This document shows, one piece after another, positions 39,220 to 58,347 of a DNA stretch of 64,000 nt. Every line of letters begins with the position of its first letter. Position 1 is the first letter of the stretch. This DNA comes from Pseudobdellovibrionaceae bacterium (GTDB lineage Bacteria > Bdellovibrionota > Bdellovibrionia > Bdellovibrionales > UBA1609), in assembly GCA_018663505.1 (NCBI GenBank), contig JABJQG010000053.1:144239-208238 (forward strand), written 5' to 3'. The notes beneath the pieces are model-generated. The model saw only the letters and a program-made list of their open reading frames with translations. It was not told where the DNA came from and did no database searches. The translations under genes were made by a program, and so were the position numbers.

Positions 39220-39684
39220 ATAAGTTACGGCCAGAATATTCTCAGATCTACTTTTACAATATCTGCTGTATTTATTTTAGCAAGCTGTTCGCTACATCAA
39301 TCAGAAGGCAACAAAGCATTAGAAAAAAGTGCTTTTAATTTAGCGAGTTGCCTCACTCAAGAAACACTAGCAAATTGCCTGAATAGTGTTGGAGCATTTA
39401 GTGCCGAACCAGAGTTAGACGCAAAGCTTTATGCCAATATTTTAATGAACAACAATAATGATATTTTAAAAAAATGTGATGTGAACAAAGGTTCACTTAC
39501 TTTTACTAATAACAAAGTTATCCAGCCCCCTACGGCTGATAGCCAGCATAAAAACTATTTAATATATCCCACAAGAAATCATCTAAAAATTATATTTACA
39601 ATCAAAGACTCACCTTTTTTCATTAACTGTAATACTCACTCATATGTGCAACGCATTGATTACATAAAGGAACCAACATCATGA
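39220..39684 (+). CDS. Lipoprotein with apparent AUA start codon
   Basis: An open frame runs from a TAA at 39190 to a TGA at 39682-39684, but contains no ATG, GTG or TTG before 39445. An exact AAGGAG (39208-39213) stands 6 nt upstream of ATA (39220). Reading from there gives a textbook lipoprotein signal: SYGQNILRSTFTISA followed by VFILASC, with the lipobox Cys at residue 26, then a 129-residue mature chain with five further cysteines. The stop overlaps the next gene's ATG (ATGA), showing translational coupling. Either AUA is used as a rare start, or the ATG has mutated (or been misread at 39222) and the gene is decaying. Starting at ATG 39445 would remove the signal and half the protein. 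Confidence 0.7.
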   Translation: MSYGQNILRSTFTISAVFILASCSLHQSEGNKALEKSAFNLASCLTQETLANCLNSVGAFSAEPELDAKLYANILMNNNNDILKKCDVNKGSLTFTNNKVIQPPTADSQHKNYLIYPTRNHLKIIFTIKDSPFFINCNTHSYVQRIDYIKEPTS

Positions 39685-40520
39685 AAACTATCCAACGACT
39701 CCTACTCGTTTTTTCTCTCATTTTTATGTGCTCACCCATTTTTGCCGCAAAAATTGTTAAGGTTAAAGGTCGTAGAGTGACCATCAAACTTGATGGTATG
39801 AAAGTAAAAAAGGGAACTCGTCTCAATGTTTACTACAAAAAAAAATGGAAAGCTCAAGTTGCAGTAACTAAAGTTAAGGGTAAATATGCTTTTGGTGTTA
39901 GAAAAGGCAAGGGGCGTATTAAAAAAGGATACACACTTAAAGTGTCTAAAGTAAATGCCAAGGAACCTAAATCATTAAAAAAGAAAAAATCAAATGATGA
40001 CTATATTGCTGGATTCCTGGTTGGCCCTCTTATTTTCTCCATGAATGTTACCGATACTACTACCAACACCACAAAAGAACTCACTAGCACAGGATTACTT
40101 TTAGTAAAAGGTTTCCTAGATTATAATGTTTTTGATTTCTTTGAGGCACGGCTAGGAGTGGGCTTTGCTAATTTTGAAGCCACAAATGATACATGTGCTG
40201 GAATTTGTGAGGTGGCCATAAACTACTTTATCATTGATGCTACCCCACGCTTTATCTTTAACAAAAAATCAAATATTCGACCATGGATTGGTGGCAATTT
40301 AGGCTTATATGTGCCCACGGGTTTCGTTGTCACTGCCATTGGTGATGACTCTGTAGCCGCCACAGGTTTCTTTGGTGTCTCTGGCGGAGTGGACATCCAA
40401 TTCGGTGAAATGAAAGAACTGATGATCCCAATACAGTTCACATACGGCATATTCCCACCATCAGATACTGTTACCGCGAATGCTATGACTCTTTCTGCTG
40501 GTTTTGCATTTAAATTTTAA
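39681..40520 (+). CDS. Outer-membrane beta-barrel protein with basic N-terminal domain
   Basis: 279 residues. Signal peptide MKTIQRLLLVFSLIFMCSPI to FAA; then a very basic segment (about 24-110, VKVKGRRVTIKLDGMKVKKG and similar) that looks like a small SH3-like beta domain; then a barrel of about eight strands (110-279) ending in SAGFAFKF with a terminal Phe. It is coupled to the upstream lipoprotein through ATGA and probably pairs with it at the outer membrane. Function unknown. Confidence 0.83.
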   Translation: MKTIQRLLLVFSLIFMCSPIFAAKIVKVKGRRVTIKLDGMKVKKGTRLNVYYKKKWKAQVAVTKVKGKYAFGVRKGKGRIKKGYTLKVSKVNAKEPKSLKKKKSNDDYIAGFLVGPLIFSMNVTDTTTNTTKELTSTGLLLVKGFLDYNVFDFFEARLGVGFANFEATNDTCAGICEVAINYFIIDATPRFIFNKKSNIRPWIGGNLGLYVPTGFVVTAIGDDSVAATGFFGVSGGVDIQFGEMKELMIPIQFTYGIFPPSDTVTANAMTLSAGFAFKF

Positions 40521-40624: not shown

Positions 40625-42100
40625 TCACTCTTCTGCTGCTTCAAAAGTAATTTTTGGCTCTGCATGGCAGCCTTCACAGGATTCATAGGTAGGCATATTT
40701 GTTCTTTTGTTAGAGTCCGCACCTTCTTGCTTAACATGACAACTATAGCAATTTGATTTAAAAAAGTCTGAGCTGGACATATCTCCATGATGTTTTTTCT
40801 TTTTTCCTGGTAAAGTTATGCGCTCTTCATGAGGAATGTCCACATGGCAAGTATTACAAGCTAATCTTTTTCCGCTTCTTGCATGAACATCTGCAGGAAT
40901 ACGTCGCTTTTTCTTATGACAAACTAAACACTGTTGGTCTTTACCTCGTCCACCACTATCTCTGTCTTCCTGTACTCCCCTAACAAACTCTGCACCATGT
41001 TTTTTTGGATTTGCCCAGTTTGGTGGGTGTGGAAAATTATGACACTCTTTACAAGACTTCTTTACTTTTCCACCAGCATAATCTGCCCCATGACAAGTCT
41101 TACAGCTATTTTTATCGTCTAAATACACCTTTCCATGTTCTTTAAGCTTAAACTCTTCTGAATGCGGTAGGGACACCGATTTATGGCAAGATGCGCAGTC
41201 AAGGTACTGTTTTGGATTATTTGCAGCCATATGGCTGGTTCGAGCGTGACAAGATTTACAAGATATTTTTTTTGTGTCTTCAGAATGATTTTCATCACTC
41301 AAATTATTTTCAACTAACAACTCATCAGTTGAACTTTCTTCTGTATTTTTTTTCGGCTCTAATTGTTTTAAAAATTCTTGTCCATGATTTTTTCCTACAG
41401 CCCACTTGGAGGCATGGGGATAACTATGACAGGTTTTACAAGAAACTTTGGAGTTCCCGCCCTTGTAATCACCACCATGACATTGAGTACAAGAATCTCT
41501 GTCTTTAAAAAAATTTTCTCCATGAACCGCTGTTGTTTTAAATTTTTCTTTATGTGGAAAACCTGAGTGACAGGTGCTGCATGCATAACGGTTGTTCCCA
41601 CCATCCAGCTTTTCGCCATGACACTTTTTACAAGAATCTGGATCTTTATAATAACCTAAACCATGTTTTTTTGAAGTTGTAAAAGCCACTGTGTGAGGAA
41701 AATCCTTATGACAGCTTCGACAAGATACCTTACTAGACCCACCACGATAATCTGAGCCATGACATGTTTTGCAATTTTGTGGATTGGATAAGAAGAAGGG
41801 GCCATGTGATGCCGTACTACTAAAGCTTGCTGTATGAGGAAAGGCTTCATGACAACTACTACAACTGATTTTTGATGATCCTCCCTTGAGTTCATTCCCA
41901 TGACAAGTTGTACAACTTTGTGGATTTGCTAAATAAGTTTTTCCATGGCTGCCCGAGCTGGTAAAATCACCATTATGAGGGTAAATAGCTCCTTGGCTAA
42001 AAGGCTTTACAGATAAAGTAGGAGTTAAGGTTTCTTCTTTACAAGATACCTGCGCTAAAGCCACAATAATAAGACTAAAACATAAAACAAAATTCCTCAT
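40625..42100 (-). CDS. 16-haem c-type cytochrome built of tandem repeats
   Basis: 491 residues, exported (MRNFVLCFSLIIVALAQVSC; a Cys at residue 20 makes a lipoprotein possible, though the lipobox is imperfect). Sixteen CxxCH haem-attachment sites are present. The first half consists of repeats of about 47 residues, each holding two haems: an HG...SC.xCHG(N/S)(E/D)(L/Y).GG half and a S/A-C..CH...FPH half. A low-complexity acidic linker (about 240-275) separates a more diverged second half. Close spacing of haems suggests a molecular wire. Last gene of the five-gene-plus-barrel minus-strand operon. No close named homologue recognised. Confidence 0.92.
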   Translation of the reverse strand: MRNFVLCFSLIIVALAQVSCKEETLTPTLSVKPFSQGAIYPHNGDFTSSGSHGKTYLANPQSCTTCHGNELKGGSSKISCSSCHEAFPHTASFSSTASHGPFFLSNPQNCKTCHGSDYRGGSSKVSCRSCHKDFPHTVAFTTSKKHGLGYYKDPDSCKKCHGEKLDGGNNRYACSTCHSGFPHKEKFKTTAVHGENFFKDRDSCTQCHGGDYKGGNSKVSCKTCHSYPHASKWAVGKNHGQEFLKQLEPKKNTEESSTDELLVENNLSDENHSEDTKKISCKSCHARTSHMAANNPKQYLDCASCHKSVSLPHSEEFKLKEHGKVYLDDKNSCKTCHGADYAGGKVKKSCKECHNFPHPPNWANPKKHGAEFVRGVQEDRDSGGRGKDQQCLVCHKKKRRIPADVHARSGKRLACNTCHVDIPHEERITLPGKKKKHHGDMSSSDFFKSNCYSCHVKQEGADSNKRTNMPTYESCEGCHAEPKITFEAAEE

Positions 42101-42157
42101 TCTTCCCTCCCAAGAAAAATTAATCTCTTTTATTACCCACCATGCAATCCATACTCA

Positions 42158-42667
42158 TCAATGATGCCTTTTCTTTTTTATCCCAAACTTTGGACGTTTC
42201 ATGGCCGGATCAGCATTAATTCTATCTATTATTACGCCATGGCTTCCATGGCAATCAATACATTGAAATTGCGTCTTAATACCGCTCCATTTACCCACTC
42301 TCTTGCCGTGAACCCCTACTTTCCAATCCCTATAAGTGCTTCCGTGACAACTGCCACAAAGGAAAGAGGAGTTTTTAAAATCTGCAGGGAACCCCTCTGT
42401 GGACCTTAAATAGTTATGATTACTACGGTTATGACAATAATTACATGACATTTTTTCATGTCCATGCTTCAGCCCAATTTTACGGTGCTCCATTTGCGGG
42501 CGTTTGCTGCTAGGAAAGGGGATCTTCTTTTTTTTCTTATGACACTTTTGGCAAAGGTTATATCGTTCTGGCAACAGGCGTTTTTTGTTCATAACTTGAG
42601 CCAAACTATTTTGATAAAATAAAATAAACCCAAAAAATAAAATAAATCTTATGGTAAAAATCATCAT
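42158..42667 (-). CDS. Tetrahaem c-type cytochrome, paralogue of the plus-strand one
   Basis: 169 residues with a signal peptide (MMIFTIRFILFFGFILFYQNSLA) and four CxxCH sites: CQKCH, CNYCH, CGSCH and CIDCH. It shares a plan and motifs with the plus-strand protein at 46084-46593: a CxKCHKxKK start, DWKxGxHGKxxGxW in the third segment, and a C-terminal RPKFGI. Probably a soluble periplasmic electron carrier of the NrfB/NapC-soluble-domain type. Its ATG overlaps the end of the upstream dihaem lipoprotein gene. Confidence 0.9.
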   Translation of the reverse strand: MMIFTIRFILFFGFILFYQNSLAQVMNKKRLLPERYNLCQKCHKKKKKIPFPSSKRPQMEHRKIGLKHGHEKMSCNYCHNRSNHNYLRSTEGFPADFKNSSFLCGSCHGSTYRDWKVGVHGKRVGKWSGIKTQFQCIDCHGSHGVIIDRINADPAMKRPKFGIKKKRHH

Positions 42668-42999
42668 GGTTCCACACCGTTGTCACCATGACAACTCATA
42701 CAATAAGCTGAACCACCATTGAGTAAAGTCAATCTTACAATCTCATCAGCATCCACAACAGAGCTTTCGCTACGATGTACATTATTTGCAACATTATGGC
42801 ACACTAGGCAGTCTCTGCGTTTATAGCCACCTTTATGCTCACTAGCCCCGCTAATAATAATCCCTTCAGGGGAACTCGAGAGATCACCATAGTCCTCTAA
42901 ATCACGATCTTTATCACAACCTAAAGAAAATAATAAAAAACACATGCTTATAAAAAAATATACTATTTTACATATCACCGCCCACCGCCTAAGTGACAA
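42664..42999 (-). CDS. Dihaem cytochrome c lipoprotein
   Basis: 111 residues. The hydrophobic N-terminus ends in LFSLGC, a probable lipobox, so it may be anchored to a membrane. Two CxxCH sites: CLVCH (about 61) and CMSCH (about 100). It overlaps the 7-haem gene upstream by 25 nt and the tetrahaem gene downstream by 4 nt, so all are translated together. A small lipid-anchored relay between larger cytochromes is a reasonable reading. Confidence 0.87.
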   Translation of the reverse strand: MSLRRWAVICKIVYFFISMCFLLFSLGCDKDRDLEDYGDLSSSPEGIIISGASEHKGGYKRRDCLVCHNVANNVHRSESSVVDADEIVRLTLLNGGSAYCMSCHGDNGVEP

Positions 43000-43568
43000 T
43001 TACTACAGTATGTTTGTGTGTGGCATACTGAGCATCGTTGTGGGCTCATTCTTGCTTCTATGGAGTGTGTATACCTAAATATGGGAGTATGATTGGAGGA
43101 TTCTAAGGTATTTCTCCGAGCATGGCACTTCACACAAGTTGACTGACTATGGCAACTTGTACAACTCTGCCCCGTAACTTTAGCGTTTAAAGCGTGAGAA
43201 CTCTTCCACTCCACATTATAGTGATTATAGGGTTTAATTTTTTTAAGATTCTCTCTACCTTGATGGCAAGTATAACAAGTCTTAGGAGCGCTTTTAAACT
43301 TAGGGTGTTCTGAATTATGACATTGGTGACAAAGTGCCTTGGTTGATTTTTTGAAAGTAGAACTTTTTGCTGAATCAGAAAGCTGAGCTGTGTTGTCCTT
43401 CTTGTCTAAGGAGAAATTATGACAATTAGAACATTTGAAATTTAATGAACGAAAAGCCTTCTTCTCATGAAAATCATGATCATAAAGTTTTAAAATTGAT
43501 TTGGATGACAGTCCAGCTGTTAACATTAAGGGCATATAAATTAATATTATAAAAATGAAATACTTCAC
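42975..43568 (-). CDS. Heptahaem c-type cytochrome
   Basis: 197 residues with signal peptide (MKYFIFIILIYMPLMLTAG) and seven CxxCH motifs: CSNCH, CHQCH, CYTCH, CTSCH, CVKCH, CSVCH and CSNCH. The last three lie in the C-terminal third, the very end being CSNCHLGGGR. Several lone histidines (for example EHPKF, YNHYNV) could be distal ligands. Periplasmic electron transfer is inferred. The gene shares one base with the barrel gene before it. Confidence 0.91.
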   Translation of the reverse strand: MKYFIFIILIYMPLMLTAGLSSKSILKLYDHDFHEKKAFRSLNFKCSNCHNFSLDKKDNTAQLSDSAKSSTFKKSTKALCHQCHNSEHPKFKSAPKTCYTCHQGRENLKKIKPYNHYNVEWKSSHALNAKVTGQSCTSCHSQSTCVKCHARRNTLESSNHTPIFRYTHSIEARMSPQRCSVCHTQTYCSNCHLGGGR

Positions 43569-44839
43569 TATGATGGCCTCCAGAAAAAGTATCTCAATTT
43601 AGAAAGTATCCTTACGTCATTTTGGTTTTCGTTGTTATTACCAACTTCACCAACTAACTGTAAATCAAAATTTTTCCACATCCATTTTCCTAAGCCCATT
43701 CGCATTAAGGAGACAAACCGTTCTGAGGAAGTAACCTTTTTATAATAAGAAACATCTAAAGTTCCAATAACATCAAATCCTCTCCACCAGTGAGATCGAA
43801 TGAATACTCTTGTACCATAAAGCTCTCCCCCATAACTCTGTAAATAATACAAAGAGCTATTTGATTTCAAGCGTGCGTCCTTATAATCAATTGCAACTTT
43901 AACCTTGTAACCTGTAGCCATTTGATTCTGCTCAATTTGATAACTATCATAGGCTGTTAACATAGAAAAATATGTTTTACTATTTACTATTCTTCCAAAC
44001 TTAAAGCCCAACTCTTTCAAATCACCAGTAGAAAAAATAGAATATATAGGACGACTAAATAAACCATCATTTTGTTTTAAATTGACATAACTTGTGGTTA
44101 ACCCCATATGTCCTTTAATTGTTGGGTAAATATCCCAATCAAAATTAAAATGTTGGACTCTATTATCATTTGTATTCAACTGTATTGAACTTTTTATTTC
44201 TGAAGAGTAAAAACCATAGAACTGCTTATTAAAATAAACCTGTGATAGGTTCAAATTTTCTTCTGTGTCTTTAAAAACAGTTTCAACTTTTGCCCCCACA
44301 GTCCATGGTAGATACGCATCACTCACATAAGATACCTTTGCTGCCACCCGTCGGGCACTTAGATCATCAAGATTCTCTAAAGACCTAGCCTCTCCAAATA
44401 TGGTTCCTAATTTCAATCGATGATTTAAAAAATCCACGGATCCACCAACCGAATCTGTAACCATAGTTACAATCCAATCTTGTGGATTAAACTGTCGTCC
44501 AGCATACAAGCTATAGCGCTTATTTTTAGGTCGATAATTCAACGATAGTAAATGAACATCCAACTGTCCTTCGTTACGCTGCTGTAACCAATTCATTCCA
44601 AAACTAGAATCTATAGTGAGCTCTCTATTTGCCGATCCGTAGTGGGAAGTTATATATTCATAAAGTGGAGTTTCCAAACTAAGATCTTTACCCATTCTAG
44701 CTGCAAAAAAAGTTTCCGATTCAAAAAAATGGGTTGCCTGGTTGCCGAATGCTGATTGTGTATTAATAATAAAATAATATAAGAAGCAAATAACTAAATA
44801 AGTTTTTAATAATTTTTTAGAGTTTTTATTTTTGTTCAT
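43568..44839 (-). CDS. Outer-membrane beta-barrel protein of the cytochrome cluster
   Basis: 423 residues; signal anchor about 13-32 (YLVICFLYYFIINTQSAFG), then a chain of amphipathic strands with turns rich in Asn, Asp and Gly, ending in LRYFFWRPS. It has no haem site. Its place between the 11-haem and 7-haem genes, with overlaps of 14 nt and 1 nt, marks it as the barrel partner of the cytochromes, in the manner of MtrB/OmbB-type proteins in porin-cytochrome conduits. It is far shorter than those (about 700 aa), so it may have fewer strands; direct homology is not claimed. Confidence 0.83.
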   Translation of the reverse strand: MNKNKNSKKLLKTYLVICFLYYFIINTQSAFGNQATHFFESETFFAARMGKDLSLETPLYEYITSHYGSANRELTIDSSFGMNWLQQRNEGQLDVHLLSLNYRPKNKRYSLYAGRQFNPQDWIVTMVTDSVGGSVDFLNHRLKLGTIFGEARSLENLDDLSARRVAAKVSYVSDAYLPWTVGAKVETVFKDTEENLNLSQVYFNKQFYGFYSSEIKSSIQLNTNDNRVQHFNFDWDIYPTIKGHMGLTTSYVNLKQNDGLFSRPIYSIFSTGDLKELGFKFGRIVNSKTYFSMLTAYDSYQIEQNQMATGYKVKVAIDYKDARLKSNSSLYYLQSYGGELYGTRVFIRSHWWRGFDVIGTLDVSYYKKVTSSERFVSLMRMGLGKWMWKNFDLQLVGEVGNNNENQNDVRILSKLRYFFWRPS

Positions 44840-45893
44840 TTTTAAACCTCACTTTTCGATTGTAAGTGAAGGTCTTATGACAAGCTGTTGTACAATTGCC
44901 ACCTGTGGCACTAGGTATAAACTTAAGCGGAAGGGTCAACTGTTTATAGGCAAAGCTCTCTCTTACAAGCTTATCTTGTTGAGTTCCATGAATATTATGA
45001 CAAGTGAAACAACCTCTTTTTTTATTACTTCCCAAAGTATGCAAATAGTGTAAATTTTGGGAGCCATTTCTGAAATTTGTTTTAATACTAAGTCTTTTGT
45101 AAAAACGATCTATTTTATGACACTGAAAACAAAGCTGACTTGATCCTAACAAATCCTTAGGATAAGTGTGTTTACTGAATTTAGACTCAACTAAGAATTT
45201 ATTTTCTGAACCATGAACCGAATGACAGCTATGACACTTTCCTTCCCTAACGGGTGTGTGTAAAAACTTAAATGATGAAGTTATTTTGTTGCTGGCTAAT
45301 AAATGTCTTCCATCTTTTAACACTTTAGATTTTGTATGGCATTTTAAACACAACTCTGCTGATGTGGGCTCCTTCATTAATGCATGATTCTTAGAACTAT
45401 GAGGGGCGTGGCAACTTAAGCACCCTTCCTTCATTTTTTGTACTTGATGCCCCTTTGAATCAGCAGGCATTACTTTATCATGGCAGCTAGTACATAGTTT
45501 TACTGAGGATTCGAATTTGAGTAATGATTTGTTTGAAGCTCCGTGCGGATTATGACAACTTACACAATTTTTTTTCGTGATCGCCTTATGTAGATGATTT
45601 TCTTTACTTAATTTCATTTTCATTTCGTCATGACAAGCAAAGCAATAACTATTAAAATCTTTTGTTTTAATTTTTTTAAGCTGAGGATGTTTTGCAAATT
45701 TGTTTTGCTTTGTTAGTAAAGGGTGGCACACAGCACAGCCATTTGCCTCAATAGGACCATGAGTAAATTTGTGCCCCAGTTGTTCAGTATGGCACTTCAA
45801 TGTACAATTTTGACCAATGTCCCCGTAGCTGTGAAAGCTTAATAAAGATACAAATAGTACAAATAGAGTGGCGTTAATAGCTCCCCCCTTCAC
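44826..45893 (-). CDS. Undecahaem c-type cytochrome with two CxxxCH sites
   Basis: 355 residues, signal peptide (about 1-25). Nine CxxCH motifs plus two CxxxCH motifs: CTLKCH near the N-terminus and CTTACH near the C-terminus. The pairs of motifs in NPHGASNK, APHSSKNH, SVHGSENK and NIHGTQQDK belong to the doubled-CxxCH pattern of DmsE/OmcA-class cytochromes. It is the first gene of the minus-strand operon. Start GTG 45893 has no strong Shine-Dalgarno sequence; a GGGGGGAG just inside the frame hints that translation may begin a few codons later at a non-standard codon. Confidence 0.9.
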   Translation of the reverse strand: MKGGAINATLFVLFVSLLSFHSYGDIGQNCTLKCHTEQLGHKFTHGPIEANGCAVCHPLLTKQNKFAKHPQLKKIKTKDFNSYCFACHDEMKMKLSKENHLHKAITKKNCVSCHNPHGASNKSLLKFESSVKLCTSCHDKVMPADSKGHQVQKMKEGCLSCHAPHSSKNHALMKEPTSAELCLKCHTKSKVLKDGRHLLASNKITSSFKFLHTPVREGKCHSCHSVHGSENKFLVESKFSKHTYPKDLLGSSQLCFQCHKIDRFYKRLSIKTNFRNGSQNLHYLHTLGSNKKRGCFTCHNIHGTQQDKLVRESFAYKQLTLPLKFIPSATGGNCTTACHKTFTYNRKVRFKNEQK

Positions 45894-46083
45894 CCCATTT
45901 AATTTAAGTCGGTTTTATTGAATTACAAAAAAAAGTCAAGTTTAATAAAAAATTGCACATTCTTTCTCAAAAAATGCCACTTTTAAATACTACTTTTATA
46001 TATTTTCTAATACCTCATAATGTTGCTGGTTGTTTGTTCACCTATTTTGTGATAGCAAGGCTAACTATAAACGGGAGATTGTA
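45894..46083. promoter_or_regulatory. Divergent regulatory region of the cytochrome cluster
   Basis: 190 bp of very AT-rich DNA between the two cytochrome operons. No exact FNR (TTGAT-N4-ATCAA) or CRP site could be seen; a partial pair TTGAA...GTCAA at about 45919-45940 has the wrong spacing. Both promoters must lie here. Confidence 0.45.
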
Positions 46084-46593
46084 GTGTCAAAAATCCATAT
46101 GGTAAATCTAATTTTGCTATTCATGGTGCCTTCTATGCCAAAAGGAAATATTATTGCAGAAGTTAAAACTATGCCTCGAATAAAAAAGATTAAAAATTTC
46201 CCCTGCTCTAAATGTCATAAGAACAAAAAACGCAATTTTCAGATCTCCCTTCCTTTAAATAGTCCTCACAATGAAATTGTTTTTAACCACATGCCAAGTA
46301 TTAATAGTTGTTACCAATGCCACAGCAAGAATAATATTAAAGGACTTATCTTAAGAGATGGAAGAAAGCTTTCATTGAGTAACTCCAATCAACTTTGTTG
46401 GCAGTGTCATGGTGAAATTAAAAATGACTGGAGAACAGGCCTGCACGGGAAAGAAACAGGTAGTTGGTTAACAACAAAATATAGATATTCTTGTATTGAA
46501 TGTCACGAGGCACATAGCCCGCGGCCTCACTCAATGAAAGCAGAACCTTCAATTCAACGCCCTAAATTCGGGATTACCAAACAGGAACATTGA
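46084..46593 (+). CDS. Tetrahaem c-type cytochrome (quinol-dehydrogenase complex partner)
   Basis: 169 residues from a GTG at 46084, chosen because GGGAGA lies 5 nt upstream and a hydrophobic signal follows; the upstream ATG at 46030 is not preceded by a ribosome site. Four CxxCH sites: CSKCH, CYQCH, CWQCH and CIECH. Paralogue of the minus-strand tetrahaem protein (shared DWRTGLHGKETGSW and RPKFGI blocks). Overlaps the ferredoxin gene by 4 nt (ATGA). Probably the periplasmic haem subunit accepting electrons from the ferredoxin/NrfD pair. Confidence 0.9.
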   Translation: MSKIHMVNLILLFMVPSMPKGNIIAEVKTMPRIKKIKNFPCSKCHKNKKRNFQISLPLNSPHNEIVFNHMPSINSCYQCHSKNNIKGLILRDGRKLSLSNSNQLCWQCHGEIKNDWRTGLHGKETGSWLTTKYRYSCIECHEAHSPRPHSMKAEPSIQRPKFGITKQEH

Positions 46594-47552
46594 TGAAAAA
46601 TATTGATAATGACAACAGCTCAATACCAAATGAACTTAAAAGAGCTCAACGAGTTGAGAAAAAAACAAAACAAGTTTTAGATACTAAAATAGAGAGACGT
46701 GGCTTTCTGAAAATGGCCGCAGCGGCCGCAGCAGCCACACTACCCGCCAAAGAAGCCCCAGCATTTTTTGATTTTTTTAAAAAGCATTATAAAGAAATGA
46801 CTCCGGCAGAAAAAAAAGTAGCCATTGCGAAATTAGAAAAAAAACTTGAAAAAAAACTGGGTCTAGATATTAATGTTACCAACCCCGACCCTATTGATAA
46901 TGCGCATTTTGTATACGGCCTTGACCTATCAAAATGTAATGGTTCAAGAAAATGTGTCACAGCTTGTGTGAAAGAAAACAATCAAGGTCGTGATCCTGCC
47001 ATTCAGTATATCAAAGTACTAGAAATGGATATAGGAACCATGAATCTTGAAAAAGGAGACCAATATTATAATGGCATTGTACCAAAAAAAGGGAAATTCT
47101 ATATGCCAATTCAGTGCCATCAATGCGATAACCCTCCATGTGTCAAATCATGTCCAGTTGAAGCAACATGGAAAGAAAAAGATGGCATTGTAGTTATTGA
47201 TTCTGAATGGTGTATTGGTTGCCGTTACTGCATGGCTGCTTGTCCCTATGAAGCCAGACGTTTTAATTATTCAGAACCAAAAATTCCAAAAAAAGAAGTG
47301 AATACCACTCAGGGGTATCTGTCTAATAGAGTAAAGCCAAAGGGTGTTGTGGAGAAATGTCATTTCTGTCTTCATCGTACAAGAGAAGGCAAACTCCCCG
47401 CTTGCCAGGAAGCTTGTCCAACAGGCGCTAGAAAATTTGGCAACCTTAATGACCCTAAAAGTGATGTGGCTATTATTTTTAAGAAAAAAAGAATTTTTGT
47501 ACTTAAAGAAGAGTTAAATACATCCCCTAGATTTTTTTACTATTTTGGATAG
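46590..47552 (+). CDS. Tat-exported four-cluster ferredoxin, NrfC/DmsB-like
   Basis: 320 residues. A Tat signal ERRGFLKMAAAAAAATL lies at 35-51, so the protein is exported folded. Four cysteine groups follow: CNGSRKCVTAC (116-126), CHQCDNPPCVKSCP, CIGCRYCMAACP and CHFC...CQEACP. The first group has Ser at position 119 where the second cysteine is expected, so cluster 1 is probably altered or lost. This class of protein passes electrons between an NrfD-type membrane subunit and periplasmic redox partners. It lies 12 nt upstream of the NrfD gene. Confidence 0.93.
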   Translation: MMKNIDNDNSSIPNELKRAQRVEKKTKQVLDTKIERRGFLKMAAAAAAATLPAKEAPAFFDFFKKHYKEMTPAEKKVAIAKLEKKLEKKLGLDINVTNPDPIDNAHFVYGLDLSKCNGSRKCVTACVKENNQGRDPAIQYIKVLEMDIGTMNLEKGDQYYNGIVPKKGKFYMPIQCHQCDNPPCVKSCPVEATWKEKDGIVVIDSEWCIGCRYCMAACPYEARRFNYSEPKIPKKEVNTTQGYLSNRVKPKGVVEKCHFCLHRTREGKLPACQEACPTGARKFGNLNDPKSDVAIIFKKKRIFVLKEELNTSPRFFYYFG

Positions 47553-47564
47553 CGGAGAAAATAA

Positions 47565-48782
47565 ATGATTAGCTATATAAATTATTGGATAAATATAATT
47601 AAGTTCGCTTTCATAGGTGGAAAAAAGTTTTATCTATGGACAGGCTTTCTGTCCGTACTAATAGGCCTTGGCTTCGCCGCCTATACTCAACAATTTCAAA
47701 ATGGACTTATTGTAACTAATCTGTCCGACCAGGTAAGCTGGGGTGCCTATATTGCGAATTTTACATTTTTAGTAGGCGTTGCAGCGGCGGCCGTACTCTT
47801 AGTCGTTCCCACTTATATCTACAAAAGAGATGATGTTAAAGAAGTTGTTTTAATTGGTGAGCTCTTAGCAATTTCAGCCATTGTAATGTGCCTGCTTTTT
47901 ATTATTGTTGATATGGGAAGGCCTGATCGCTTTATGCATATTATTCCTTTCATAGGGCGTCTTAATTTCCCCGCATCTATTTTAGCTTGGGATGTGGTTG
48001 TTCTCAACGGCTACCTCATCCTTAATCTTCACATTCCAGGTTACCTTCTCTATAAAATGTATAAAAATCAAAATCCAAGTAAAAAATACTACATGCCATT
48101 TGTGATTATTTCTATTTTCTGGGCAGTAAGCATTCATACTGTCACTGCATTTTTATACAGTGGACTGGGTGGACGCCCCTATTGGAATTCAGCTATTCTT
48201 GCTCCTAGATTTTTAATCAGTGCCTTTGCAAGTGGTCCAGCTCTAATGATTATTATATTTGCTCTAATTAACCATTTTACCAATTTAAAAGTCAAACAAT
48301 CTGTTTCCAATCTATTGTTAAGTATTTTGAAAGTGACTTTACCTATTAATATGTTCTTGCTTGGTAGTGAGCTCTTTAAAGAGTTTTATACCGACTCCAC
48401 CCATGCCCTTTCTGCTCACTATCTATTTTTTGGAATCAACGGGCACGCAATGTTAGCTCCGTTTATATGGTCTTCAATTTTATTTTCATTTATAGCCATG
48501 GCTATTATTTTTATCCCAAAACTTAGGAATAACAAAAAAATCCTCTATGTCGCCTGTGTATTAACATTCATAGGCATTTGGATTGAGAAAGGAATGGGGC
48601 TTATAATTCCAGGATTTATCCCTACTCCAATCGGAGACTTAGTAGAGTATACCCCTTCAATGATTGAATTTTTAGTTTCTGTTGGTATTTGGTCCATTGG
48701 AGGTCTGATTTTCACCTTAATGGTTAAAGTGGCAATTGCTATCCAAACCGGCGAATTAAGAGAAAAGAAAAAAACAGCATAA
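47565..48782 (+). CDS. NrfD/PsrC-family quinone-binding membrane subunit
   Basis: 405 residues with about ten transmembrane helices (for example 24-41, 61-83, 95-115, 170-192 and the rest of the chain). VSWGAYIANFTFLVGVAAAAV near residue 57 and DMGRPDRFMHIIPF near 122 are typical of the NrfD/PsrC family, which exchanges electrons with the quinone pool. Conserved histidines late in the chain (NGHAMLAPFIW) fit the family. It forms, with the ferredoxin and tetrahaem cytochrome, a complex iron-sulfur module lacking a molybdopterin catalytic subunit. No terminator with a T run is seen after it. Confidence 0.93.
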   Translation: MISYINYWINIIKFAFIGGKKFYLWTGFLSVLIGLGFAAYTQQFQNGLIVTNLSDQVSWGAYIANFTFLVGVAAAAVLLVVPTYIYKRDDVKEVVLIGELLAISAIVMCLLFIIVDMGRPDRFMHIIPFIGRLNFPASILAWDVVVLNGYLILNLHIPGYLLYKMYKNQNPSKKYYMPFVIISIFWAVSIHTVTAFLYSGLGGRPYWNSAILAPRFLISAFASGPALMIIIFALINHFTNLKVKQSVSNLLLSILKVTLPINMFLLGSELFKEFYTDSTHALSAHYLFFGINGHAMLAPFIWSSILFSFIAMAIIFIPKLRNNKKILYVACVLTFIGIWIEKGMGLIIPGFIPTPIGDLVEYTPSMIEFLVSVGIWSIGGLIFTLMVKVAIAIQTGELREKKKTA

Positions 48783-57036: not shown

Positions 57037-58347
57037 TATATAGACGATTATGACGTACGTTAATTTCTGAGCGATTGTGTCCTATTGATGTTATAAACAT
57101 CCCCTAATCTTAACAACTTAGGGGACCATCAATGAGGAAGGTTACAATGAATTTAGATGAGCTAAAGATTTATCGATTGGGCATGGGTGTTCTTTCAGGT
57201 ACTTTAACTATAAAAGAGTTCTCAGAACAAATAGGGAAATCTTATAGGCAATCCCAGAGAATAATTAAAAAGTTAAGAGAGCGTGATTTTGAAGGCGTAT
57301 TTCACGGTAATTTGGGTAGAGTCCCACATAATAAAACTCCACAGAAATTTGAAGATCGAATTATCGACCTACTAAAGCATAGATATTATGGTTTTAATCT
57401 TACCCATTTTAGAGAAATGATACTGAAGTATGAAAAAATAGAAATTAAAAAGGACGTCCTTCACCGTATAGCTAAGACACATGGTCTTGTTAAGCACCCT
57501 AAACGCAGAGGGCGACGATGTTATAAACCTCGCCCTCGTTTAGAACAAGAGGGCATGATGATTCAATTTGATGGCAGTAATCATGTTTGGTTTGGAGAAG
57601 AGCGAACAGATTTAATTGGTGGAATTGATGATGCCACAGGTAAGGTTGTCGCTGCAGAATTATTTTATGGTGAGAAATCAAATCACTCACTGAAAGTTAT
57701 ACGGGAAATCATAGATAAGAATGGTTTACCAGAAAGTTTTTATATGGATCAAGCTGGTATCTATGGAAAAGCTGATAGAGAATGGGAGTCCCAGATAGCT
57801 AGGGCTTTTCAGCAGACAGGTATAAGACTAATACTTGCCGGTTCATCACAGGCAAAGGGACGTGTTGAGCGTCTATGGAGGACCTTTCAAGATCGTTTGG
57901 TTGCGGAGTTAAGTTTATACCAAATTACTGATATAGAGGAAGCCAATCAATTTTTAAAAAATAAGTTTATACCCAGATATAATGCACAGTTTAGCGTTGA
58001 AGCATCAAGCAAAGAAAAAGCTTATCGTAAAAATGTATTTGGAGATTTAGATATAATATTTTGTAAAAAATTAACTCGAAAAATTATGTCAGGTAACTTA
58101 TTTAGTTGGGAAAATGTGAGCTGGATCATTGATAAGAAAACGGATTATTGTGGTCGAGAGATTAGTGTTAATTTACATATTGATGGCTCGTATAGTTTTG
58201 ACCTTATGGGACGAAAGGTTAATTGTAAGCCTCATAGCTTAAAAAAGTTAAGTCATAACGAAGGAAAGACGAGGACAAAAAGAAGAGCTTAAAGCTATAG
58301 GACACTTTCGCACAGATATTAACCGGACACAGTCGCCCAGATACAAC
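57037..58347 (+). mobile_element. IS1202/ISNCY-type insertion sequence, about 1.31 kb
   Basis: One transposase gene bounded by imperfect inverted ends. The inner block at 57059-57085 and the reverse complement of 58297-58323 match at 23 of 27 positions; outside it, weaker matches continue to the ends (TATA..G.CGA type). Flanked by 22-bp direct repeats with one mismatch. The exact ends are uncertain by a few bases. Confidence 0.8.
57132..58292 (+). CDS. DDE transposase, IS1202/ISNCY family
   Basis: 386 residues, apparently intact. Residues 10-60 form a helix-turn-helix (GVLSGTLTIKEFSEQIGKSYRQSQRIIKKL). The rve-like catalytic core has Asp in IQFDGSNHVWF (about 150), Asp in FYMDQAGIYGKADREWES (about 205) and Glu in KGRVERLWRTFQDR (about 247), giving a plausible DDE triad. 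A C-terminal beta domain follows (about 310-375). GGGGA precedes the ATG by 7 nt. Cut- or copy-and-paste transposition is inferred from the family. Confidence 0.92.
   Translation: MRKVTMNLDELKIYRLGMGVLSGTLTIKEFSEQIGKSYRQSQRIIKKLRERDFEGVFHGNLGRVPHNKTPQKFEDRIIDLLKHRYYGFNLTHFREMILKYEKIEIKKDVLHRIAKTHGLVKHPKRRGRRCYKPRPRLEQEGMMIQFDGSNHVWFGEERTDLIGGIDDATGKVVAAELFYGEKSNHSLKVIREIIDKNGLPESFYMDQAGIYGKADREWESQIARAFQQTGIRLILAGSSQAKGRVERLWRTFQDRLVAELSLYQITDIEEANQFLKNKFIPRYNAQFSVEASSKEKAYRKNVFGDLDIIFCKKLTRKIMSGNLFSWENVSWIIDKKTDYCGREISVNLHIDGSYSFDLMGRKVNCKPHSLKKLSHNEGKTRTKRRA

Follow-up and report, generated by a model that had tools for sequence, protein, structure and literature searches.

A candidate porin-cytochrome electron conduit with an adjoining quinol dehydrogenase module in a Pseudobdellovibrionaceae bacterium

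A divergent multihaem cytochrome locus

We analysed a window of 64,000 nucleotides from a Pseudobdellovibrionaceae bacterium of the Bdellovibrionota (assembly GCA_018663505.1, contig JABJQG010000053.1) and focus here on positions 40,625-48,782, where multihaem cytochrome genes, an outer-membrane barrel gene and an NrfD-type quinol module form a candidate trans-outer-membrane electron conduit. The layout of nine genes in two divergent operons, proposed in an earlier sequence-only reading, was borne out, since all nine open reading frames (ORFs) lie where it had placed them. The minus-strand operon is transcribed in the order A6, A5 (the barrel), A4, A3, A2 and A1, with consecutive genes overlapping end to start from A6 to A2 and a 57-bp gap before A1; the plus-strand operon is transcribed in the order B1, B2 and B3. 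The features are as follows, with CXXCH haem-binding motifs counted strictly.

40625-42100, minus strand: A1, 16-haem cytochrome and predicted lipoprotein, 491 residues; 16 CXXCH; homologues in 5 relatives
42158-42667, minus strand: A2, 4-haem cytochrome, 169 residues, paralogue of B1; 4 CXXCH; kept in 7 relatives
42664-42999, minus strand: A3, dihaem lipoprotein, 111 residues, third gene of the conserved core; 2 CXXCH
42975-43568, minus strand: A4, heptahaem cytochrome, 197 residues, constant partner of the barrel; 7 CXXCH
43568-44839, minus strand: A5, outer-membrane beta-barrel, 423 residues; 22 strands and no plug in the AlphaFold2 model
44826-45893, minus strand: A6, MtrA-like 11-haem cytochrome, 355 residues; 9 CXXCH and 2 CX3CH
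45894-46083, no strand: divergent intergenic region, 190 bp, a promoter region common to both operons if B1 starts at GTG 46084
46084-46593, plus strand: B1, 4-haem cytochrome, 169 residues from GTG 46084; 4 CXXCH
46590-47552, plus strand: B2, ferredoxin exported by twin-arginine translocation (Tat), DsrO/CbcT-like; twin-arginine motif RRGFLK, Fer4 domains and Fer4_11
47565-48782, plus strand: B3, NrfD/PsrC-family membrane subunit of DsrP type; PF03916, 143 bits against a cutoff of 25.8

The strict motifs sum to 42, with none in A5. The two CX3CH motifs of A6, one close to each end of the protein, are kept as CX3-4CH in 7/7 aligned homologues. If both bind haem, which this conservation makes a reasonable assumption, the locus carries the 44 haem motifs that the sequence-only reading had counted. 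All seven motifs of A4 are invariant over 24 sequences, with identity down to 28%, and chance haem motifs are thereby excluded. Over eight sequences of A3, the invariant residues are C28, C64/C67/H68 and C100/C103/H104. Both A1 and A3 have lipobox-like N-termini, their placement in the outer membrane is predicted, and A1 is a candidate surface cytochrome.

The shared promoter region of 190 bp described earlier holds with GTG 46084 as the start of B1, a choice for which a GGGAG box lies ahead of this codon. Promoter-like sites in the region are in modest excess (40, against 29.6 in shuffled sequences, standard deviation 6.0), and a regular-expression search of it found no FNR/CRP-type operator.

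The identity of the plus-strand module as a Tat-exported ferredoxin and an NrfD subunit also stood, on the RRGFLK motif, the Fer4 domains and the PF03916 match. B3 scored 416 bits against the DsrP model NF045798, above its cutoff of 350, and B2 scored 181.8 bits against the DsrO model, just under its cutoff of 200.

The barrel and its partners in relatives

The AlphaFold2 model of A5, built from a 24-sequence alignment, has a mean predicted local distance difference test score (pLDDT) of 86.1 and a predicted template modelling score of 0.73. It shows 22 strands joined by short turns, and no plug domain is present. Against Pfam and NCBIfam, the 24 members of the family gave only chance-level or generic porin matches; the barrel profile matched no PDB sequence, and nothing was found in plasmid records. 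When the model was compared with the PDB using Foldseek, FimD came first, which we take to have 24 strands. The best template modelling scores by query length, mostly ~0.55-0.59, belonged to BtuB and PirA, presumably both of 22 strands. Scores were lower (~0.27-0.49) for the porins that we take to be of the ordinary 16-18-strand kind. According to this model, A5 is a plug-less 22-strand barrel that fits a cytochrome sheath and not an ordinary porin.

We then looked at which genes accompany the barrel. Conserved synteny, one of the checks suggested for this locus, was found throughout: heptahaem and barrel genes are adjacent on one strand in 52/52 loci with matches to both profiles, across several phyla, a set that includes a few places fetched twice. 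Eight further heptahaem loci have no barrel-profile match, some being contig ends and others having an unmatched barrel-like ORF at that place. The gene next after the heptahaem is usually a 2-haem lipoprotein.

Within the taxonomic order to which the window belongs, the A5 barrel was found in 9/141 genomes, and the NrfD subunit (B3, E below 1e-50) in exactly the same nine; given the shared ancestry of these genomes, a naive probability for this co-occurrence is too small to quote. In one of them (G029), NrfD lies on a different contig from the barrel, where it is accompanied by B1, B2 and a 13-haem lipoprotein. Because the B module there is on a separate contig, the association of barrel and NrfD goes beyond mere physical linkage. 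Where relatives offer sufficient flanking sequence, most of the order A6-A5-A4-A3-A2 and of the set B1-B2-B3 is seen again, at ~22-69% identity. ResB/CcsA cytochrome c maturation genes, read from ORFs, adjoin several loci.

Two relatives carry an A6-related 13-haem lipoprotein within the B module, between ferredoxin and NrfD (L012, 4301-5707; L102, 11468-12907), and it apparently replaces the 16-haem A1 there. Beyond its conduit locus, a further relative (L018, 11069-19660) has NnrS-, NorD-, NorQ- and NorB-like genes as well as a regulator of Crp/Fnr type.

The heptahaem protein has a patchy distribution in the phylum, with 33/369 sampled genomes and 28/182 genera carrying it, and it is fair to describe the system as unusual for a Bdellovibrio-like lineage. 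In the heptahaem tree, the window's protein falls in a Bdellovibrionota clade of 16 rows (99/99). Standing apart from it, on deep branches that are long and unsure, are a Binatia clade, a clade of 'Deltaproteobacteria' metagenome-assembled genomes (MAGs) and another Bdellovibrionota group, which is more divergent.

Searching GTDB species contigs with the heptahaem profile returned 29 loci, among them some from Bdellovibrionales, from unplaced 'Deltaproteobacteria' MAGs and from Candidatus Binatia. Nearly all have the arrangement multihaem cytochrome-barrel-heptahaem-dihaem lipoprotein, and the neighbouring cytochrome carries 10 to 33 haems. In three of these relatives (L033, Candidatus Binatia; L046, bacterium HR30; and L038), a decahaem protein of the OmcA/MtrC family lies directly upstream of the barrel, scoring 356-370 bits against a cutoff of 209. 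Judged from these genes, this pairing is the strongest outside evidence suggesting a partnership of the barrel with a surface cytochrome. A further locus, from the phylum of the Binatia genome (L097), has an OmcA/MtrC-family protein downstream (221.8 bits). In a sample of that phylum, barrel-profile matches adjoin 10-haem proteins matched by the heptahaem profile, followed by 12-13-haem lipoproteins of 745-919 residues, the same size and order as in ombB-omaB-omcB.

Known conduits and the rest of the genome

Geobacter Pcc (porin-cytochrome complex) systems of the OmbB-OmaB-OmcB, ExtABCD, ExtEFG and OetABI type likewise combine a small barrel with an adjacent periplasmic multihaem cytochrome and a lipoprotein multihaem cytochrome (PMC4245776, PMC6148476, PMC10553843). 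Their barrels, with 18-22 transmembrane segments by prediction, are far smaller than MtrB, and their periplasmic cytochromes carry 5-14 haems (PMC4245776); ExtB has 18 segments and ExtE 21 (PMC6148476). At the present locus, A5 has 22 strands (pLDDT 86), A4 and A6 have 7 and 11 haems and are encoded by genes overlapping that of the barrel, A1 and A3 are predicted lipoproteins, and Binatia-type relatives have OmcA/MtrC proteins. The earlier argument that a small barrel must represent a new type therefore does not survive, because Pcc barrels are of this size (PMC4245776) and the A4 and A5 profiles reach Pcc-like loci in another phylum that share the layout; the likeness to the named Geobacter proteins is one of layout and description. 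In contrast to Geobacter Pcc, the locus also encodes an MtrA-like 11-haem cytochrome, a lipoprotein with two haems and a DsrOP-type quinol module of its own. By analogy, the system probably works as Pcc conduits do and is one of them; its core is distinct, and its quinol module is encoded at the locus.

The likeness to Shewanella MtrCAB and to MtoAB and PioAB lies in A6, whose profile found 6r2q_A as its best PDB match (E 2.7e-25), which we take to be the MtrA chain of the MtrCAB complex, and in the Binatia-type relatives that pair the barrel with an OmcA/MtrC-family cytochrome. The molecule label of 6r2q_A in the search output, 'Cystathionine beta-synthase', looks wrong for a chain matching an MtrA-like cytochrome. 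Membership in MtrCAB was rejected on three counts. MtrB is a barrel of 26 strands, whereas A5 has 423 residues and 22 strands, and its 24 family members gave no MtrB/PioB match; A6 reached 87 bits against the DmsE-family model TIGR03508, below the cutoff of 192; and no OmcA/MtrC-family cytochrome was found at the window locus, where A6 scored best with 40 bits against the cutoff of 209.

In Cbc4 of Geobacter (CbcSTU) and SirCD of Shewanella, a multihaem cytochrome, a four-cluster ferredoxin and an NrfD-type protein form a menaquinol:cytochrome c oxidoreductase (PMC11434368). B1-B2-B3 have the same composition in one operon and are likened to these systems by composition, but here the module is tied to conduit genes. 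The DsrP score also brought up DsrMKJOP: B3 passes the DsrP model and B2 comes close to DsrO. We rejected this label, as the locus lacks DsrM, DsrK and DsrJ and the genome has no DsrAB.

Genome-wide questions were answered by family searches. The absence of a terminal reductase, another point of the sequence-only reading, was confirmed: no molybdopterin gene lies at the locus, and the genome has no match to PF02335 (NrfA), so that an NrfABCD nitrite reductase fails, nor to NIR_SIR (the Dsr sulfite reductase DsrAB). The single molybdopterin gene of the genome lies away from the locus in a NarGHJI-like cluster. Of three haem-copper oxidase-family genes, one stands beside NorQ/NorD-like genes, and an alternative-complex-III-like cluster contains the genome's second NrfD; these clusters and neighbours were read from ORFs. 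From its genes, the organism looks like a facultative aerobe or denitrifier with unusually rich multihaem equipment.

These genes bear on a different explanation, namely periplasmic respiration or detoxification of a soluble substrate, in which an oxyanion or nitrogen oxide would be reduced by the cytochromes, with the barrel acting as a porin for the substrate. NrfD-ferredoxin modules often feed periplasmic reductases, the genome has NarG- and NorB-type genes, and the L018 locus is beside genes read as nitric oxide reductase and NnrS. However, the NarG- and NorB-type genes are on contigs other than that of the locus, and NrfA and NIR_SIR are missing. Two outcomes had been named beforehand as speaking against a conduit, homologues always accompanied by a soluble terminal reductase and a barrel that is an ordinary, unpaired porin, and we found neither: a reductase is not part of the set in the relatives read, and A5 is unlike 16-18-strand porins and is paired with the heptahaem wherever both were found. 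We regard this explanation as quite unlikely.

Elsewhere in the genome, a 30-haem cytochrome of 836 residues lies beside a second barrel-like protein of 439 residues, with ResB/CcsA-like genes adjoining (L061, 7344-11170), and the pair is possibly a second conduit. This barrel was considered as a relative of A5 and rejected (hhalign probability 2%). An N-terminal FQNCG motif is common to a 19-haem, a 7-haem (L061, 17776-19767 and 5900-6715) and a 33-haem protein (L063, 9325-12540), of which the 19-haem and 33-haem proteins read as lipoproteins from their ORFs. The 33-haem protein, which contains repeats of CNSCH/CVSCH-like units, is a possible surface or filament cytochrome. The very high haem content, 44 motifs at the locus in addition to these 30-, 33- and 19-haem proteins, would also suit a periplasmic and surface electron buffer, which would act as a capacitor in redox balance and carry no respiratory electron flow to an acceptor outside. 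Such a buffer would need neither a barrel nor a co-inherited, dedicated quinol dehydrogenase, and we consider it very improbable.

Two neighbours in the window complete the picture. A secreted protein adjoining the locus (39681-40520) weakly resembles ExtJ at its N-terminus (23 bits, cutoff 52.5), and an integrase-like transposase ORF lies at 57132-58292.

Proposed electron path and its significance

We consider it likely that the locus encodes a Pcc-type conduit for electrons across the outer membrane together with a quinol dehydrogenase that serves it. Gene content, haem motifs, the modelled barrel fold, the constant pairing of barrel and cytochrome, the co-occurrence of NrfD and the lack of a local or alternative reductase were shown here and support this reading. 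Thus, the conduit part of the originally proposed quinol-to-surface export system stands; its export direction and its acceptor we infer, as we do the seating of a cytochrome in the barrel and the order of the carriers.

In our model, B3 (NrfD/DsrP) and B2, the four-cluster ferredoxin, would oxidise quinol and pass electrons to the periplasmic tetrahaem cytochromes B1 and A2 and to the MtrA-like 11-haem A6. These would in turn reduce the heptahaem A4, held inside the plug-less 22-strand A5 across the outer membrane. The lipoproteins A3 (dihaem) and A1 (16 haems) would then hand electrons on, either to an extracellular acceptor or to further large surface cytochromes that the organism has. Because the heptahaem and not A6 appears as the invariant partner of the barrel, we seat A4 inside the barrel and give A6 the role of feeding it from the periplasm.

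Several observations weigh against this model. MtrB was not among the best 50 Foldseek matches of the A5 model. The AlphaFold2 model of A4, the cytochrome proposed to sit in the barrel, was poor (pLDDT 60). The surface localisation of A1 and A3 is a prediction from their N-termini, and A3 here carries Asp at position +2, which in E. coli keeps lipoproteins in the inner membrane.

Electron flow from quinol to the surface is most likely. The main rival to export is the same conduit running inward, as in PioAB/MtoAB, where an extracellular donor (Fe(II), another cell or a cathode) would feed A1/A3 and then A4/A5, and quinone would be reduced at B3. MtrA, the best solved relative of A6, belongs to a family used in both directions (PMC8805035). 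NrfD-type subunits are able to reduce or oxidise quinone, and the haem-copper oxidases of the genome could consume such electrons. In contrast, large lipoprotein cytochromes, present at the locus, and OmcA/MtrC-family ones, present in relatives, are typical of export, and we judge import unlikely.

Within the export model, we suggest more tentatively a hybrid distinct from both Mtr and Geobacter Pcc. In it, a cytochrome of MtrA type and a dedicated quinol dehydrogenase of DsrOP type would feed a barrel-heptahaem-dihaem core that is kept across phyla while its neighbouring cytochrome is swapped (MtrA-like, OmcA/MtrC, or up to 33 haems). Such a system could give this Bdellovibrionota branch extracellular respiration.

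What would be new is a complete inner-membrane-to-surface wire of the Geobacter porin-cytochrome kind in a relative of the predatory Bdellovibrio; in the open-licence literature we found no account of extracellular electron transfer in Bdellovibrionota and no report of such a wire for this lineage. Because the quinol dehydrogenase and the conduit adjoin and are found in the same genomes, the entire quinol-to-surface path could be moved into a laboratory host and tested as a single set. If our reading is true, the barrel/heptahaem/dihaem module, for which no family model exists, would mark conduits in phyla where MtrB- or OmcB-based searches see nothing, and part of a phylum known for predation would be able to respire to acceptors outside the cell.

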